Source of the DNA: Deltaproteobacteria bacterium
GTDB taxonomy: Bacteria > Desulfobacterota > Desulfarculia > Adiutricales > Adiutricaceae
NCBI GenBank assembly: GCA_031278635.1
Contig: JAITKA010000001.1
Location: 1-44,836 of the forward strand
Direction: 5' to 3'
DNA: 44,836 nucleotides
In this document: one piece after another, positions 8,778 through 30,574 of the stretch
How positions within the stretch are numbered: position 1 is the stretch's first letter
Layout of the letters: each line of letters opens with the position of its first letter
Program-made: the position numbers and the translations under genes
Notes under the pieces: generated by a model
The model's database searches: none
Told to the model about the DNA's origin: nothing
The model's input: the letters and a program-made list of their open reading frames with translations, nothing else

Positions 8778-8804
8778 ATTTTGGGCGAGGTTTAGCTTGA
8801 AACC

Positions 8805-8839
8805 TACCTCAGAGGGGAATGTGTTTTCCCTCTGAGGTA
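8805..8839 (+). terminator. Strong hairpin downstream of pilQ
   Basis: TACCTCAGAGGG (8805-8816) and CCCTCTGAGGTA (8828-8839) are perfect 12-bp arms, extendable by three more pairs. No T-tract follows, so it may act as an mRNA 3'-end stabiliser or Rho-assisted terminator instead of a classical intrinsic terminator. Confidence 0.6.
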
Positions 8840-8983
8840 AGTTAGTCTATCGGGCTTTAAATCGCAACTTTTAGGCCCACGCTTATGGGAAAACATTACC
8901 GTCGAAAATAAAATAATTTTTTAGGCTTACGTCGCTAGGTCAAAGCCAGCGAAAAGAGTCTTTAGAGCCACCGAAATTTAGCC

Positions 8984-9012
8984 TTGACAAGCAAGCCATC
9001 ATACAGCATAAT
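8984..9012 (+). promoter_or_regulatory. sigma70 promoter of tRNA-Val
   Basis: TTGACA (8984-8989), 17 bp, CATAAT (9007-9012). The tRNA begins 35 bp after the -10 box. Confidence 0.85.
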
Positions 9013-9046
9013 AAAAAAAGTCGCTTTATTCGGCTGACGACATCGT

Positions 9047-9121
9047 AGGCGTGTAGCTCAGGGGGAGAGCACTACCCTGACACGGTAGTGGTCAAGAGTT
9101 CAAATCTCTTCACGCCTACCA
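9047..9121 (+). tRNA. tRNA-Val (anticodon GAC)
   Basis: Cloverleaf by eye: acceptor stem AGGCGTG/CACGCCT, D-arm GCTC/GAGC, anticodon stem CTACC/GGTAG with loop CTGACAC (anticodon GAC), a 5-nt variable loop, and T-arm AAGAG-TTCAAAT-CTCTT. The 3' CCA is encoded. It has its own promoter and terminator and is monocistronic. I saw no integrase or direct repeat suggesting use as an attachment site. Confidence 0.95.
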
Positions 9122-9146
9122 CAAATTTCCCCGGGTTTTTTCCGGT

Positions 9147-9190
9147 AAAGTCCGAAAGCTAGGTAAACCCTAGGCTTTCGGACTTTTTCT
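9147..9190 (+). terminator. Intrinsic terminator of tRNA-Val
   Basis: AAAGTCCGAAAGC... pairs with GCTTTCGGACTTT with one bulged G near the loop, followed by TTTTTCTTT. It starts 26 bp after the tRNA. Confidence 0.85.
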
Positions 9191-9640
9191 TTGCCTGGGA
9201 AAGCCGGTTTCGCGGGCGCGCGCATGGCCATCGCGTCCCTTGGGCGGCGAAATTTTGGCAGGCCCCGTCTTTCCTTCTTTCCATCTTTCGATGGCGCTTG
9301 CGAAATTATGACTTAAGCTATACAATAAGCGAAGCCAGTTTAGCCAAAATCCCATAGGAGTAGGTTTAGGGCTATCTATAACGGATAAACGGTCACGGCC
9401 CTAAAAGCGCGGCCCACAAATGCGGCTTTTTTGTTCGGTCCCAACGGACCCCTCGGCGGTCATCATGCGGTCACCATGGCGATCGCCGACGGGGGCCGCG
9501 CCTTTGGGCCGGCTCAATCGTTTTGTTTAAACCCTATAGTCATATATAATATGGGCTTGAGGAAAGCCTTGGATCTTCGAAAAGCTCCAACCATAGTTTA
9601 GGGACTATTTTCTTTCACCGTAAAACTGAGAGGTGCCAAC
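9191..9640. other. Leader region of infC
   Basis: No gene is supported here. In many genomes thrS precedes infC; it is absent. A bulged hairpin followed by TTTTTT (about 9402-9437, AAAAGCGC...GCGGCTTTTTT) resembles a terminator or attenuator. TTGTTT (9523-9528), 16 bp and TATAAT (9545-9550) form a plausible infC promoter about 90 bp before the start codon. Confidence 0.45.
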
Positions 9641-23209: not shown

Positions 23210-24526
23210 TTAAAAGCGCCCCGTGGCCGGGCCCGGGAGGCCCCTGGGGCAGGCCGGGCGGCAGGCGAGGCCGCAGCCGGGCCGGGAGTTTTGGCAGGTT
23301 TCGTCGGAGACGGCCGGGGGGGCGAGGAGGCCCAGGCGGGCTATGGCCCCGGCGGGGCAGGCCTTGCGGCAGCGGCCGCATTTGAGGCAGCCGGCCGGGC
23401 AGAGGGCGTCCATGTCCTTTAGCTTGGCCGAGCCGCGGCAGGCCACGACGAAGGAGGCGTCCCTGGGGCGGAGGGTCATCAGGCCCTTGGGGCAGGCGGT
23501 GAGGCAGGCCCCGCAGCCGCGGCACCTGGCCTTGTCGATTTTTGGCGGGAGGCCCGGGCCCGCGGGTTTTATGGCCCCGTTGGGGCAGCCGGCGGCGCAG
23601 TCGCCTAAGGTGAGGCAGCCCTCGGGGCAGTCCTCCGGGCCCCCGTCCAGGGCGGCGGCCAGGCGGCAGCCGGGCGGGCCCTGGTAGGCGACGGCCCGGG
23701 AGGGGCCCTCCCGGCCGCAGAGCCTTATGGCCACGAGGTCCGGGTCACCGTCCGGGGGGGGCCCGGCCGGGGCCAGGGCCGCGGCCTTCCTGGCCCGGGC
23801 GCGGCTTTTGAGGCTGAGGGTGGCCTCGATCAGGGACAGGGCGGCGAGGCCCGGGAGCATGGACCATGGGGCCAGCCCGGCCAGGGTCACCAGGGCGGCC
23901 CCGGGCCAGGCCTTTCTGGAGGGCCAGAACTCGCGGCCCAGGTGGAAGGGCAGGGTCAGCCAGACGAGGCCCCAGGACCAGTCAGGCCGGGCGAGGCCGA
24001 GGGCCGGGGCCAGGGCGGCCCAGGGGGCCCAGGCCAGGATGGGGATGAGGGCGCCGAGGGGCCTCTGGCGGCCGGTCAGGAGGGCGGCCAGGGCCGCCGG
24101 GAGGAGGGCCAGGAGCCAGGGCCAGGGCAAAGGGCCCAGGGCCGGGGTCCGGGGGAGCCCGGCCAAAAGGCCTATCAGGGCCGCCGGGAGGAAGGGGTGG
24201 CGAAAGAGCCGCGTTTTGGCCGTGAGGGCGGCGACGGCGAGGCCCGCCGCGGCCAGGGGCAGGGGGCCGGCCCAGGGGCCCAGGAGGACCGCGGCCAGGA
24301 GGGCGTTCAGGGCGGTCCCGGCCCAGGGCCGCCGGGAGGAAGGGGCCGGTTTGGCCAGGGCCAGCGAGGCCAGGGCCGCAAGGGGGCAGGCGAGGGGCCA
24401 GAAGACGCCGCCCGCGGCCAGGGCGGCCAGCCAGGGGGTCAGGGCCAGGGCCGTCCAGGCTTCCGGGCCGGGCGGCCGGGAACCGGGGAACGGCCCCGGT
24501 CTTAGCCTTAGCGGGGCATTGGCCAT
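23210..24526 (-). CDS. RnfD-like membrane domain fused to RnfB-like ferredoxin domain
   Basis: The N-terminal ~240 residues are hydrophobic with about seven helices (25-58, 72-102, 112-125, 135-150, 157-178, 183-196, 206-236). Their order and the TALNALLAAVLLGPW / HPFLPAALIGLLAGLP segments recall RnfD/NqrB, but no S/T-GAT flavin-attachment motif is seen. Residues 262-395 match the C-terminal half of RnfB: CRLAAALDGGPEDCPEGC, CAAGCPNGAI, CRGCGACLTACPKG (335-348) and CLKCGRCRKACPAGAI (380-395), giving several [4Fe-4S] sites. The RnfB N-terminal helix and its first Fe-S domain are absent. GAGGT precedes the start. It is third in an operon with the MFS and RnfC-like genes. Role is inferred: membrane-linked electron transfer with ferredoxin. 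Confidence 0.75.
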   Translation of the reverse strand: MANAPLRLRPGPFPGSRPPGPEAWTALALTPWLAALAAGGVFWPLACPLAALASLALAKPAPSSRRPWAGTALNALLAAVLLGPWAGPLPLAAAGLAVAALTAKTRLFRHPFLPAALIGLLAGLPRTPALGPLPWPWLLALLPAALAALLTGRQRPLGALIPILAWAPWAALAPALGLARPDWSWGLVWLTLPFHLGREFWPSRKAWPGAALVTLAGLAPWSMLPGLAALSLIEATLSLKSRARARKAAALAPAGPPPDGDPDLVAIRLCGREGPSRAVAYQGPPGCRLAAALDGGPEDCPEGCLTLGDCAAGCPNGAIKPAGPGLPPKIDKARCRGCGACLTACPKGLMTLRPRDASFVVACRGSAKLKDMDALCPAGCLKCGRCRKACPAGAIARLGLLAPPAVSDETCQNSRPGCGLACRPACPRGLPGPATGRF

Positions 24527-24539
24527 GGAAACCTCGATC

Positions 24540-25685
24540 TCACTCGCCCAAGGGCGGGGGGTCGTTCCCGGCCCGGCCGTAGGGGTCCCCGGCCCCGGCC
24601 GCCACGGCCAGGAGCAGAATGGGCCTTCGGCTGGGGCAGGCGAGGCCGCAGGCCCCGCAGCCGCCGCAGCCGGCCAGGGCCTCCCTGGCGGCCCGGTGGA
24701 GGCCGGGCCATTCGGCCAGCGGGGCCTGGGCCAGCGCGTCCACGGGCAGGCCCAGGGGGCAGGCCAGGCGGCACAGCGAGCAGAGGCGGCAAGGGGCTGG
24801 GGGCGCGGGCAGGCGGCCGGACCTGATGAGCCGCAGGGCGAGGTCGGGGGCCTTAAGGCCCCGGCCCAGCCTGACCGTGGGCCTGCCGGTCACGAGGCCA
24901 CCCAGGAGGGCCACGTCGCCGGCCATGGGCTTTAGGTTGACGGCGGAAAGGGCGTCGGAGATCCTGACGCCGGACGGGGCCAGGTAGTGGAAGCCCTGGA
25001 CGGTCATGGGGATGAGGGTCAGCGGGAGGCCCGAGCGGGCCACGGCGCCCATGGCCCACAGGGTCTCGGGCCCCACGACCCCGGTGGCCCGGGGGGCCGG
25101 GAGGCCCAGGACCTTGCGGCGCAGGAAAGAGGGGAGGGTCAGGGGGAAGGGATCCCTGAAGACCACCGGTTTCGAGGAGCCCAGGGGGGCGAAGCGCGGG
25201 GGCAGGATCTCGGTAATCCCGGTCCCCGGCCAGAGGCGGGCCAGGAGCCCCAGGCCCCGCTGGAGGGTCGGTTTCTGGTCAAGCCACAGGGCCGCGGGCA
25301 GATCGAGGCCAGGCTCGGGGGAGAGGGCCGAGACCAGGGCGGGCTCGCCCGCCGGGGGCCTTCCCGGCCTTGCCACGCCGAGGGATTTGAGGGCGGCGGC
25401 GAGGGCCTCGCCCTCAAGGGACTTAAGGTCGAGGGGTTCGGGGACCTGGCCGGAGAGGCCCTGGCCGTAGGCGAGGTCGATACGGCCCGGCGAGAGGCCG
25501 ACCACCGTGGCGCTGAAGGGGGCCCTCAGATCCCCGGCCAGGGGGTCCCTGGAGATGGCCAGGAGCTGGCCCATCGAGACCGGCCGCCCCGGCTTGAGGC
25601 CGGGGGCCGGGCGGCCCTCGAAGGCGAGGCTGGCCGCCCCGGGCGTGGGCCAGGCCTTCAGGACCGTGTGGCCTGGGGAGCCCAT
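24540..25685 (-). CDS. RnfC-like iron-sulfur protein, shortened
   Basis: A 381-aa RnfC relative. The N-terminus resembles the RnfC biotin-carboxyl-carrier-like barrel (KPGRPVSMGQLLA ... LRAPFSATVVGL). Residues 245-280 resemble the SLBB region, and two [4Fe-4S] ferredoxin motifs close the protein: CRLCSLCRLACP (299-310) and CGGCGACGLACP (340-351). In canonical RnfC a GGAGFPT nucleotide loop and a NGAECEP-like flavin/NADH region lie in the centre; the matching region (about 103-135) shows neither. It therefore probably does not oxidise NADH like standard RnfC. Its ATG overlaps the stop of the MFS gene (TGATG), and it is followed 13 bp later by the RnfD/B-like gene. Confidence 0.75.
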   Translation of the reverse strand: MGSPGHTVLKAWPTPGAASLAFEGRPAPGLKPGRPVSMGQLLAISRDPLAGDLRAPFSATVVGLSPGRIDLAYGQGLSGQVPEPLDLKSLEGEALAAALKSLGVARPGRPPAGEPALVSALSPEPGLDLPAALWLDQKPTLQRGLGLLARLWPGTGITEILPPRFAPLGSSKPVVFRDPFPLTLPSFLRRKVLGLPAPRATGVVGPETLWAMGAVARSGLPLTLIPMTVQGFHYLAPSGVRISDALSAVNLKPMAGDVALLGGLVTGRPTVRLGRGLKAPDLALRLIRSGRLPAPPAPCRLCSLCRLACPLGLPVDALAQAPLAEWPGLHRAAREALAGCGGCGACGLACPSRRPILLLAVAAGAGDPYGRAGNDPPPLGE

Positions 25686-26914
25686 CAGGATTTGCCCGCC
25701 AGGTGGGGCGGGCTTGGTTTCCCGTGGCCGAAAAGGGCGAAAAATAGGATGATCATGAAAACCAAAAAGATCGGGGAGGCGACGTAGACCACGGAGTAGG
25801 TGCCGAAATAGCCGGCCAGGAGGCCCAGGAACAGCACCCCCAGGCCAATGCCCAGGTCAAAGCAGATGAAGAAGACGGCCGAGGCCGCGGTCCGGCGCTC
25901 CGAGGGGACGGAGGAGAGGGTCAGGGCCTGGATGGCCGGGAAGATGGTGCCAAGGCCCAGGCCGTAAAAGATCGAGGCTATGGTCATGGGGACGGGGCGG
26001 GGGAACATGACCAAAACCAGTATGGCCATGAGCAAAACCGCGGCGCCCGGCGGGATGACGGCGACGGGGCCGTAGCGGTCGTATATCCGGCCCGTGGTGG
26101 TCCGGGCCAGGACGGTCCCGATGGTCGAGACGACGAAAAAGGTGGCGGCGTTGGTCAGGCCGAGCTCCTGGCAGTATATGGCAAGGTAAGAGGTGATGGC
26201 GCAGCAGGAGGCCCCGACTATGAAGATCAGCGAGGCAGGCCCCAGGGCCCTGGTCTCGATGAAAGACGCGAGGCCCGGGGGATCGGGGGCCAGATCCGAG
26301 GAGAGGCGTATGAGCGGGAGCCTCAGGCTGATTATGGCGGCCAAGAGCGAGCAGGCGGCGACCGAGGAGAACATGACCTTGTAGCCGAAGTCGTTGTAGA
26401 GGTCAATCCCCACCAGCGGGCCCGCGGCCAGGGCCACCGTGGCCCCCAGGCCCAGGTAGCCCAGCCCCTCGCCCAGCCTTTGCGGCGGGATGACCTGGGC
26501 GGCCATGGAGACCATCAGGGTGGAGGTGAGGCCCACCCCGGCCCCGTGGAGGATCCTCGCCAGGGCGTAAAAAAACGGGTGGGGGATCACAAAGAACGTG
26601 AGAGACCCGACGAAGCAGATGCCGAACCCGCACCTGAGGACCCTGGTCGCCCCCAGCCAGCGGCTCAGGCGGGTGGTCATGACCCTGGTGACGACCGCCG
26701 AGGCGGCGAAGGAGCCGAAGATAAGGCCTATTTCCTCCTTTGAGCAGCCCTGGGCGTCCAAATATAGCGACAGGGTCGGCAGCAGCATGTCGAATCCAAA
26801 GAAAATGCAGAAATTTATGGCGATGAAGGTGGCGAAAGTCAGGTTCCAGAGGGGCGGCTTGGAATTGGCGGACGAGGCCTCCTGTCCGGGGGTTGGGGGG
26901 GTACCTGAAGGCAT
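25685..26914 (-). CDS. MFS transporter
   Basis: A 409-aa major facilitator with about 12 transmembrane helices; the first starts near LTFATFIAINFCIFFGFDMLLPTLSLYL. Between helices 2 and 3 the segment RVMTTRLSRWLGATRVLRCGF corresponds to the MFS motif A region, and TGRIYDRYGP is its repeat in the second half. It belongs to the drug/metabolite-type MFS; substrate unknown. ATG 26914 was chosen because GAGGT precedes it; an upstream 32-residue extension has no support. It is first in the operon and its stop overlaps the RnfC-like start, so its transport function may be linked to the electron-transfer module. Confidence 0.85.
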   Translation of the reverse strand: MPSGTPPTPGQEASSANSKPPLWNLTFATFIAINFCIFFGFDMLLPTLSLYLDAQGCSKEEIGLIFGSFAASAVVTRVMTTRLSRWLGATRVLRCGFGICFVGSLTFFVIPHPFFYALARILHGAGVGLTSTLMVSMAAQVIPPQRLGEGLGYLGLGATVALAAGPLVGIDLYNDFGYKVMFSSVAACSLLAAIISLRLPLIRLSSDLAPDPPGLASFIETRALGPASLIFIVGASCCAITSYLAIYCQELGLTNAATFFVVSTIGTVLARTTTGRIYDRYGPVAVIPPGAAVLLMAILVLVMFPRPVPMTIASIFYGLGLGTIFPAIQALTLSSVPSERRTAASAVFFICFDLGIGLGVLFLGLLAGYFGTYSVVYVASPIFLVFMIILFFALFGHGKPSPPHLAGKS

Positions 26915-28057
26915 CGTGGACCTCGTCGCCGGGGCCAAAAAACCGTGGCGGGTTTGGGCGGCCCCGCCGGGCAAACCATGGCTGGCGGATATTGGATCGG
27001 CTTCCGGCAAATGGGGGTAAACGATGCCTAATCAGGGCAAAAAAATTACCCCGTTAACTGTTCGATGTCGCAAAAAAACTATATATGTTTGTATGGGGAT
27101 CAAAATTCGTTAACGGTCCATGCCGAAAGCAAAAAAATTCTCGCGCGGGACTTGACCATACCAGCCCTTGGGGCAAACCTTTGGCCCGACGCATCCTGGC
27201 GGCGTCGTCCCTGGCCGGCGGGACACCGGGACCGCGAGGCCCGGTGGCGGCGACAGCGTAGAGAAAAAATATCATAAGGGTAGGTAAATTTCAACCTTTA
27301 GAGTTTTTAACCTAGCCAAAGTCCCGCGATAAAACGTTAACCGCCCAACCGCGGATGGCCCCCCGCCGGCCCGGCGAAGGCCCATGCCTGCCGGGCGCGT
27401 TTAAAAACCGGGGGAAGGAAACGCCGTTGGGTTATAACTTAGGGCTTATTGGTTAGTGATGGGAGGGTTATGGCAGTCACTTAATTGTCTGATATGGGTA
27501 TGATAACCATGTAGTGGTAGGCCATCTTTGAATGGCGCATGGATGGGGCGGGCCTAAGGCAAGGCTTGGGGGATGAATCGGGGTGGGTTTGGAAGTACGG
27601 GAAAACAAAAGCGAAAGTGGCGGGCGTGGGGCCGGGGCGAGGACGTTTGGTTGGTTTGGGCGCAAGTGCGGGTAAACAGAGGAAAAAATAATGGGGTTTT
27701 CGTTTCCCGTTAGACCGGGGCCGGGAATTTGGGTTAGCGTTAAGCTTAAACTTGACATATTGGCCGCGGGGGCGGTGCGGGGGCCGTTTCGGCGGGCGGG
27801 GCGGTGGGGCTGGGCTGAGGGGATTTACCAGTCGCGGGGGCATGTTATGGCGGGATTGGGGGATAGGCGGCAGGCTGGTCAAAATGCCTAGCCTACCAGT
27901 TTTTTCTGACGTTTTTTCTGACGTGGCTAGGCGAACGGGCGGATACGGGTGAGTTAACGAAGGGGTCATGGTCGATTAGTGGTTGTTTTTACTGGATAAT
28001 TCTGGCGGTGAATTAATAAACTTTATTTACCGCGGATGGAACTTATGACAAATTATA
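26915..28057. other. Spacer between divergent MFS and nfn operons
   Basis: No gene supported. About 27440-27890 shows strong strand asymmetry, with many G-runs and few C on the plus strand. A 162-aa Pro-rich frame on the minus strand (27481-27969) is a by-product of this bias. A tandem TTTTTTCTGACG pair lies at about 27900-27922. The two operons it separates are divergent, so promoters for both must lie here. Confidence 0.5.
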
Positions 28058-28301: not shown

Positions 28302-29138
28302 ATGTACAAAATAGTCAAAAGGCAAGCGCTCAACCACAAGGTTACCCTCCTTGAGGTGCGGGCCCCGTTGGTCGCCGCCAAGGCCCAGGCCGGGCAGTTT
28401 TTAATCCTGAGGGTGGACGAGCGCGGGGAGCGGATCCCGCTCACCATTTGCGGGACCAACCCCGACAATGGGACCATCACGATCATATTCCAGATCGTCG
28501 GGGCCTCCACCGAGCTTCTGAACCACGTGCCCGAGGGGGCGTCCATCCACGACGTCGTGGGGCCCCTGGGAAACCCGACGGTTTTGGAGGGGAAAAAGGT
28601 CTGCGTGATCGGCGGCGGGGTCGGCACGGCCATCTCCCTGCCCGTGGCCCAGCTGGGCAAACGCCTTGGCTTGACCGTCCACTCCATCGTGGGTTACCAA
28701 AACAAGGATTTGGTCATATTGGAGCAAGACTTCGTGAGCTGCTCCGACAAGCTCGTGATCATGACCGACGACGGCAGCTACGGCAAGAAAGGCCTGGTCA
28801 CCACGGCCTTGCAGGAGCTCATCGATGCCGGGGAGGTCTATGACGAGGTTGTCGCCATCGGCCCGCTGGTCATGATGAAGGCCGTGGTCGCCGTGACGAA
28901 GCCGCATAACATAAGGACGACCGTCTCGCTCAACTCGTTGATGCTCGACGGGACCGGCATGTGCGGTTGCTGCAGGGTCAACATCGGCGGCCAGGTAAAG
29001 TTCACCTGCGTGGACGGCCCCGATTTTAACGGTTTTGACGTCGATTTCGACGAGGCGGCCTCCCGCTCGCGTCAATATTTCGACTGGGAACGGGCCGCCC
29101 ATGAAAGGGTAATCAATTCATTCAAGGAGAAAGCTTAA
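28302..29138 (+). CDS. nfnA: NfnA/SudB-type ferredoxin-NADP+ reductase subunit
   Basis: This is the small subunit of the electron-bifurcating NADH-dependent ferredoxin:NADP+ oxidoreductase (also known as SudB, or the gltB-associated ferredoxin-NADP reductase alpha subunit). A FAD-binding beta-barrel (about 5-100, with IPLTICG) is followed by an NAD-binding domain with KKVCVIGGGVGTAI (about 98-111), and a C-terminal [2Fe-2S] site GTGMCGCCRV...FTCVDGP. The length of 278 aa is standard. The ribosome-binding site is weak. The stop overlaps the next start (TAATG), indicating coupling with nfnB. Confidence 0.93.
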   Translation: MYKIVKRQALNHKVTLLEVRAPLVAAKAQAGQFLILRVDERGERIPLTICGTNPDNGTITIIFQIVGASTELLNHVPEGASIHDVVGPLGNPTVLEGKKVCVIGGGVGTAISLPVAQLGKRLGLTVHSIVGYQNKDLVILEQDFVSCSDKLVIMTDDGSYGKKGLVTTALQELIDAGEVYDEVVAIGPLVMMKAVVAVTKPHNIRTTVSLNSLMLDGTGMCGCCRVNIGGQVKFTCVDGPDFNGFDVDFDEAASRSRQYFDWERAAHERVINSFKEKA

Positions 29139-30574
29139 TGGCTAAAGGGTCAGAGACAAAAGTCCCCATGCCGACCCAGGACCCCCTGGTCCGGGTCACG
29201 AATTTTTCGGAAGTGGCCACGGGTTATGGGGAAGCCGAGGCCAGGACAGAGGCCGAGCGCTGCCTAAGCTGCAAGAAGAAGCCCTGCGTGGACAATTGCC
29301 CGGTGGGAATCGACATCCCGGCCTTCATAGCCGAGATCAACAAGGGGGATTACGAGGCGGCATACAAGGAAATATTGAAGTACGGAAGCCTCCCGGCCGT
29401 CTGCGGCAGGGTTTGCCCCCAGGAAAGCCAGTGCGAGGCCACCTGCCTTAGGGGCCGCAAGGGCAAGGCCGAGGCCGTGGCCATAGGCCGGCTGGAGCGT
29501 TTCGCGGCCGACTGGAACCTGGCCAAGGCGGCCAAGGGCAACGGCTCGAAGGCCCCGGCGGTCAGCCTGACCGGGCCCAAGGTGGCCGTCATCGGTTCCG
29601 GGCCGGCCGGGCTCTCCTGCGCGGGCGTCCTGGCCGACAAGGGCTTCGCCGTCACGGTCTTCGAGGCCCTGCATATCCCCGGCGGCGTTTTGGTTTACGG
29701 CATCCCGGAATTCCGGTTGCCCAAGGCCATAGTGCGCCAGGAGATAGCCGCCCTCCGCGACAAGGGCGTGGACATCCAGACCAACGTCGTGGTGGGCAAG
29801 ACCGTGACCGTGGACGAGCTCTTCGAGAGGGACGGCTACAAGGCCGCCTTCATCGGCAGCGGGGCGGGCCTCCCGATCTTCATGAACATCCCCGGCGAGG
29901 CCCTGAACGGCGTCTACTCGGCCAACGAGTTTCTGACCCGCGTGAACCTCATGAAGGCCTACGAGGGCGACGCCTCGACCCCGATATTCAAGGGCAAGAG
30001 GTTCTCGGTCGTCGGCGGCGGCAACGTGGCCATGGACGCGGCCCGCTGCGCCAAGCGCCTCGGGGCGGAGGTCTACATCGTCTACCGCCGCTCGGCCAAG
30101 GAACTCCCGGCCAGGGCCGAGGAAGTCGAGCATGCCCACGAGGAAGGCATCATCTTCAAGTTCCTTTGCAGCCCCACGGAAATCCTCGGCTACCGCAACC
30201 CGGATAACCCCCGCGACCCCAAGAACGGTTGGGTGCGCGCGGTTACCTGCGTGGAGATGGAGCTCGGCGAGCCCGACGCCTCGGGCCGCAGGCGGCCGAT
30301 CCCCAAAAAGGACGGCGAGTTCACCATAGAGACGGACTCGGTGATCATGGCCCTGGGGACCTCCCCGAACCCCCTGATCGCCAGCACCACGGCCGGCCTC
30401 AAGACCCAGAAGTGGGGCGGGCTGATAGCCGACGAGTACGGCCTGACCTCCCGCGATAACGTCTGGGCCGGCGGGGACGCCGTCACCGGCGCCGCCACGG
30501 TCATCCTGGCCATGGGGGCGGGCAAGAAGGCGGGCCTGGCCATAGCCGAGGCCCTCTCTGGGGCGAAGAAGTAG
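29138..30574 (+). CDS. nfnB: NfnB/SudA-type NADPH oxidoreductase (GltD-like)
   Basis: This is the large Nfn subunit, 478 aa. N-terminal Cys-rich motifs CLSCKKKPCVDNCPVGIDIP (about 42-61) and CGRVCPQESQCEATC bind two [4Fe-4S] clusters. GSGPAGLSCAG is the FAD dinucleotide loop and VVGGGNVAMDAAR the NADPH loop, as in GltD. With NfnA it couples NADH and reduced ferredoxin oxidation to NADP+ reduction by flavin-based bifurcation. AAGGAG lies 8 nt upstream and the start overlaps the nfnA stop by one base. A stand-alone glutamate synthase small subunit is less likely because the FNR-like partner is adjacent and no gltB is present. Confidence 0.93.
   Translation: MAKGSETKVPMPTQDPLVRVTNFSEVATGYGEAEARTEAERCLSCKKKPCVDNCPVGIDIPAFIAEINKGDYEAAYKEILKYGSLPAVCGRVCPQESQCEATCLRGRKGKAEAVAIGRLERFAADWNLAKAAKGNGSKAPAVSLTGPKVAVIGSGPAGLSCAGVLADKGFAVTVFEALHIPGGVLVYGIPEFRLPKAIVRQEIAALRDKGVDIQTNVVVGKTVTVDELFERDGYKAAFIGSGAGLPIFMNIPGEALNGVYSANEFLTRVNLMKAYEGDASTPIFKGKRFSVVGGGNVAMDAARCAKRLGAEVYIVYRRSAKELPARAEEVEHAHEEGIIFKFLCSPTEILGYRNPDNPRDPKNGWVRAVTCVEMELGEPDASGRRRPIPKKDGEFTIETDSVIMALGTSPNPLIASTTAGLKTQKWGGLIADEYGLTSRDNVWAGGDAVTGAATVILAMGAGKKAGLAIAEALSGAKK

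Follow-up and report, generated by a model that had tools for sequence, protein, structure and literature searches.

A pair of adjacent genes in the 44,836-nucleotide stretch of deltaproteobacterial DNA analyzed here (the window, from the family Adiutricaceae) encodes an RnfC-like protein and an RnfD-RnfB fusion. The sequence anatomy and ancestry of this pair support well that it represents the remains of a DhcA-linked (Desulfovibrio-type) C-D-G-E-A-B operon. We consider it probable, at about 0.58, that the pair serves as a non-pumping, cytoplasm-facing Fe-S relay that would take electrons from ferredoxin and deliver them to an acceptor encoded elsewhere, a function that we infer from which parts of Rnf have been kept.

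The pair is preceded by an MFS transporter gene whose stop codon overlaps the ATG of the RnfC-like gene as TGATG, in agreement with the operon that a sequence-only reading of this DNA had proposed from stop/start overlap. The fusion starts 13 nt past the RnfC-like stop, a junction that in many relatives is a 4-nt overlap, and the models of both genes are sound since the same genes with conserved motifs recur in diverged relatives. Divergent from the cassette and upstream of it, the window carries the genes for NfnA and NfnB of the electron-bifurcating transhydrogenase (28302-30574, forward strand); NfnAB was considered as a partner of the pair and dropped, as it occurs at this place in close relatives only.

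Table 1. Features of the three-gene cassette, with positions in the window
Feature	Position	Strand	Basis and remarks
MFS_1 transporter gene	25685..27010	(-)	Pfam MFS_1 E 4e-42; cassette gene 1 of 3; optional partner
RnfC-like gene, 381 aa, without FMN/NADH loop	24540..25685	(-)	ORF list and profile match
RnfC N-terminal barrel region, residues about 10-70	25476..25658	(-)	aligns with 7zc6_C from residue 42 and with 8ahx_C 30-86
SPEP, residues 122-125, remnant of RnfC ECEP	25311..25322	(-)	alignment A1, 7zc6_C alignment, motif count
RnfC C-terminal 2x[4Fe-4S] domain	24606..24797	(-)	C299, C302, C305, C309 and C340, C343, C346, C350
RnfD-RnfB fusion gene, 438 aa	23210..24526	(-)	ORF list; 3' of RnfC-like gene
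RnfD-type N-terminal arm, residues 1-20, LRPGPF	24467..24526	(-)	arm motif as in RnfD
Degenerate RnfD membrane domain, about 8 hydrophobic segments, no S/T-GAT	23792..24466	(-)	hhalign to RnfD
RnfB FdII+FdIII ferredoxin domain, residues about 265-430	23237..23734	(-)	20 invariant Cys, enough for five [4Fe-4S]

A profile of 21 RnfC-like sequences (alignment A1) matched the solved subunit 7zc6_C over nearly its full length (E 1.8e-32, profile positions 24-359), and it also matched 8ahx_C, 9eri_C and, more weakly, NqrA. By this full-length homology, which includes the C-terminal 2x[4Fe-4S] domain, the protein belongs to the RnfC subunit family, and all eight of its cluster cysteines are invariant in the 21 loci. 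The FMN/NADH site, sought as GGAGFPT and ECEP in the alignment to 7zc6_C, was not found in the RnfC-like family, which bears out the claim that both regions are missing. Relative to the family profile, the GMGGATFPT loop of 7zc6_C, the counterpart of the glycine-rich FMN loop in RnfC/NuoF proteins, is an insertion; of ECEP there remains xPEP, which reads SPEP in the window and DPEP in the majority of members. AlphaFold2 models of the RnfC-like protein and the fusion, each predicted as a single sequence, were too poor to use (pLDDT values of 36 and 46).

The C-terminal part of the fusion is clearly RnfB, with matches to 9eri_B (E 4.4e-21), 7zc6_B (4.8e-14) and the NCBIfam RnfB model (1.4e-31). 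Alignment of its 20 cysteines with 7zc6_B and 9eri_B identifies an FdII+FdIII domain with five clusters, and their number and layout are those of C. tetanomorphum RnfB, in which a fifth cluster, bound by four extra cysteines, is positioned next to RnfC (PMC9588780). As the sequence-only reading had noticed, the N-terminal Fe-S domain of RnfB is gone: neither the N-terminal helix nor FdI (CGxCGxxGC) is present in any of the fusion sequences.

The N-terminal membrane part of the fusion has no match to RnfD in Pfam or NCBIfam, and its identity emerged from profile-profile comparison, where hhalign aligned it to RnfD with an E-value of 1.2e-4 (23 members) or, for six members from genus g3, of 8.7e-7 over 205 columns; the RnfE, RnfA, RnfG, MFS and reversed control profiles all gave p values of 0.13 or more. 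Homology to the RnfD subunit family is established in this manner for the set as a whole and is weak for the window's genus alone, which did not reach significance (p 0.07-0.3), so that in this genus the assignment depends on how its sequences align with those of relatives. Conservation peaks at the GP motif of the N-terminal arm, with P12 present in 23 of 23 fusion sequences and G11 in 96%, and this motif sits where RnfD has [S/A]P[H/F/Y]. In the solved C. tetanomorphum complex the RnfD arm is buried inside RnfC (PMC9588780). The S/T-GAT motif for covalent FMN, already reported missing from the RnfD part, does not occur in the fusion. Recognition of RnfC, RnfD and RnfB parts in the two genes is thereby upheld, for RnfC and RnfB by profile matches to solved subunits and for RnfD by profile-profile alignment.

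Two variants of the fusion deserve mention. At locus L045 (genome G002, positions 8786-9484) the fusion is about 230 aa long and has no membrane helices while keeping the arm motif as SDGPF, a natural soluble version that is useful for structure work. In genus g4 (L049:10220-13480 and L050:2300-7268), the RnfD part is preceded by a low-complexity N-terminal extension of 500-1000 residues with repeats such as TGPAGDRDAS.

The subunits that would make the pair part of a pump are missing from the entire family. RnfD/E (PF03116), RnfA/E (PF02508) and RnfG (PF04205) were each detected in 0 of 37 family genomes, a set that consists mostly of incomplete MAGs and includes 12 genomes of at least 90% completeness; in the same searches, PF03116 and PF04205 gave strong scores in relatives from the class, and all three did so in control genomes. 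Neither RnfA and RnfE nor RnfG with its covalent FMN, by which an Rnf complex is defined, is thus found in the family. The absence of rnfA, rnfE and rnfG beside the pair, as first noticed from the sequence, therefore extends to the window's whole genome, which has no complete rnfABCDEG operon, and the proposal of a reduced Rnf distinct from the canonical pump holds family-wide. ApbE is likewise absent from the window's genome and from most other family genomes. No DhcA gene lies beside the pair, and a DhcA query, run without a positive control, found none in the 37 genomes.

The pair itself is widespread, as the RnfC-like gene occurs in 33 of the 37 family genomes, spread over about 10 genera. 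The fusion lies directly 3' of it in 20 of 21 loci (the window counted), the exception being L044, which has the RnfC-like gene and lacks an intact fusion; one 93%-complete genome, G019, is without the pair. The MFS gene is 5' of the pair in 16 of 21 loci, and the closest homologues of the window's MFS protein accompany the pair; in genus g2 no MFS gene stands beside it, and only homologues of about 40-45% identity are found elsewhere. The order MFS-RnfC-RnfDB that was to be sought in related genomes is thus stable for RnfC and the fusion but not for the transporter. Across the loci read, the pair has no conserved partner gene at its side, which, together with the missing MFS gene in g2, leaves the earlier suggestion of a new partner unproven. 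In genus g4 (G021, G022 and G023), at least two tandem MFS homologues share a contig, either with the RnfC-like gene or with one another.

Conservation is distributed very unevenly over the two proteins. All 28 cysteines for seven [4Fe-4S] clusters (five of RnfB type, two of RnfC type) are kept at a mean identity of 42-47%, indicating that selection acts on the Fe-S parts. Within the window's genus, mean identity is 63% for the RnfC-like protein, 66% for the RnfB part and 71% for MFS, as against 40% for the RnfD part. The Fe-S parts are held while the membrane part drifts, faster than the MFS protein encoded by the same genomes, and the RnfD membrane domain is eroding, to the point of having been lost in one genome.

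Adiutricaceae have been described as putative acetogens without sulfate reduction (PMC9137090), and the hosts of the pair are probably termite-gut acetogens. An acetyl-CoA synthase gene was found in 27 of the 37 family genomes, and CdhC in each of the 12 good genomes, among them the pair-less G019. Energy conservation must use another route in these bacteria, since acetyl-CoA synthase is encoded and a pumping Rnf was not detected.

The origin of the pair is most clearly seen in the RnfC tree, where the window's family joins the RnfC proteins of dhcA-rnfCDGEAB-apbE operons, separated from all other sampled RnfC by a split with 100/100 support. The RnfB part has a less clear position in its own tree; its last cluster motif, C-x6-C-x3-C-x3-CP, is common to the fusion and DhcA-linked RnfB. 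Each of the 32 DhcA-linked loci read has the full C-D-G-E-A-B operon, and 31 include DhcA. These operons are an obvious source for the reduced form, and a close RnfC is present in 68 of 149 genomes of the family that carries them. Since operons of this kind have been described in Desulfovibrio (PMC4215793, PMC4841214), the genomes in question are probably Desulfovibrionaceae. DhcA-linked rnf operons, again probably of Desulfovibrionaceae, comprise loci L114-L116 and L171-L202. The GltD-type Rnf of this class was also weighed as the ancestor, but the tree of RnfC and the RnfB tail with its four clusters favor the DhcA-linked type instead. In the class, most of the remaining Rnf operons encode an RnfB of about 700 aa that includes a GltD/NfnB-like part. 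Among L072-L082 (probable Desulfarculia) and part of L175-L202, many operons combine an RnfB of about 700 aa, fused to a GltD/NfnB-like flavoprotein, with an RnfC without FMN/NADH motifs.

This ancestry changes how the missing motifs are to be understood. DhcA-linked RnfC proteins have GGAGFP in 0 of 32 and ECEP in 0 of 32 cases, and the corresponding RnfD proteins have S/T-GAT in 0 of 32 (loci L171-L202). The window's family has therefore inherited the lack of flavin and NADH motifs, which is not, as had been thought, a peculiarity of the window's locus. New in the family is that G, E, A and the FdI domain of RnfB were lost and that D was fused to B.

These parts suggest how the pair may work. 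What remains is RnfB FdII+III as the module for electron input, two RnfC clusters for output and the arm that would join them; the canonical path has lost FdI, RnfA/E, RnfG, the flavins of RnfD and the hydride-forming FMN that serves NAD. This pattern, in which the Fe-S parts survive while pump, flavins and NADH site do not, is why the pair probably moves electrons from ferredoxin to a partner. Reduced ferredoxin would donate single electrons to the RnfB clusters, the RnfD arm would hold the RnfC-like subunit against the RnfB domain, the RnfD remnant would tether both to the inner face of the membrane, and the RnfC-like clusters would pass electrons to an acceptor encoded elsewhere, at a site needing neither FMN nor NAD. 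Ion pumping by the pair is not expected, as all cofactors carrying electrons across the membrane are gone. The cytoplasmic ends of Rnf can on this evidence outlive the pump, presumably joined by the RnfD arm, and the family presents a natural experiment in which electron-handling parts have been separated from ion-pumping parts. Against the relay stands a distance: in C. tetanomorphum Rnf the nearest carriers of RnfB and RnfC are 25 Å apart (PMC9588780), which, with the geometry unaltered, would not allow direct transfer. The want of a conserved partner gene and the absence of the pair from G019 also count against it.

A different use of the same clusters, in which the pair is a redox-linked structural or regulatory module, an Fe-S scaffold or sensor whose redox state signals without metabolic current, is unlikely in our judgment. 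In E. coli, the Rsx system reduces SoxR, which offers a comparison for a sensor. Neither protein retains a terminal catalytic site, the operon has no conserved partner enzyme, and NqrA, an RnfC homologue, demonstrates that the RnfC fold can do without cofactors (PMC12174285). However, retention of every cluster cysteine goes beyond what a plain scaffold needs, and no conserved regulator adjoins the pair. Rather more improbable is a transport-linked reductase, with the pair reducing a substrate that the MFS protein imports or exports. Translational coupling in the window, adjacency in most loci and the way the closest MFS homologues travel with the pair are all in its favor, but an entire genus (g2) has the pair without an adjoining MFS gene and only distant homologues elsewhere.

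The idea of a decaying remnant without function draws on the erosion of the RnfD membrane part, the absence of the pair from G019 and the missing intact fusion at L044; we regard it as very unlikely, given cluster ligands that are invariant in all loci read, coupled ORFs that have been kept and an RnfC-like gene spread across the family. It is scarcely to be expected that the pair is still a pump, completed by strongly diverged RnfA/E and RnfG encoded elsewhere. Most of the genomes are incomplete, and RnfD itself has diverged past Pfam detection, both of which leave some room for such subunits, but PF02508 and PF04205 are missing even from the 12 most complete genomes under strong controls for both (and strong scores in relatives for PF04205), FdI, the electron carrier to RnfA/E, is gone, and L045 has lost the membrane part altogether.

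Returning to the relay, FMN-less RnfC proteins, freed here and attached to a pump in the Desulfovibrio type, might feed one common soluble acceptor that is not NAD+, a speculation to which we give rather low odds. Were it true, the pair would represent a new kind of ferredoxin-dependent reductase and offer the simplest setting for finding that acceptor. The Desulfovibrio Rnf has been treated as a ferredoxin:NADH oxidoreductase (PMC4215793, PMC4841214), and the present results draw attention to the fact that its RnfC lacks the FMN/NADH motifs despite this label.

Among known systems, an RnfC without FMN is already published in the Tol2-type Rnf of the sulfate reducers D. toluolica Tol2 and Desulfococcus multivorans, where RnfC has no NADH domain and an RnfB of about 700 aa carries an NAD-binding part (PMC5109826). 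The window's RnfC-like protein likewise has no FMN/NADH site, but the Tol2 type keeps all six subunits and a pyridine-nucleotide module on RnfB, and the pair has neither. NqrA is again an RnfC-fold protein without FMN and, unlike the pair, has no Fe-S clusters and is part of a complete pump. In the open-licence papers searched, no account of an Rnf reduced to two proteins, one of them an RnfD-RnfB fusion, turned up. The closest likeness is to the DhcA-linked Rnf, which shares with the pair an RnfC without GGAGFP/ECEP (mostly NPEPG or NPDPG), an RnfD without S/T-GAT, the same last RnfB cluster and the order C-D-...-B; the pair's locus differs in having D fused to B and in lacking DhcA, RnfG, RnfE, RnfA, ApbE and the FdI of RnfB. 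In contrast to the canonical complexes of C. tetanomorphum (7zc6), A. woodii (9eri) and A. vinelandii (8ahx), the pair has no FMN/NAD site, RnfA/E/G or FdI, and its RnfD is degenerate, while it retains in common with them the RnfC fold with two [4Fe-4S] clusters, the five-cluster FdII+III domain of RnfB and the RnfD arm.
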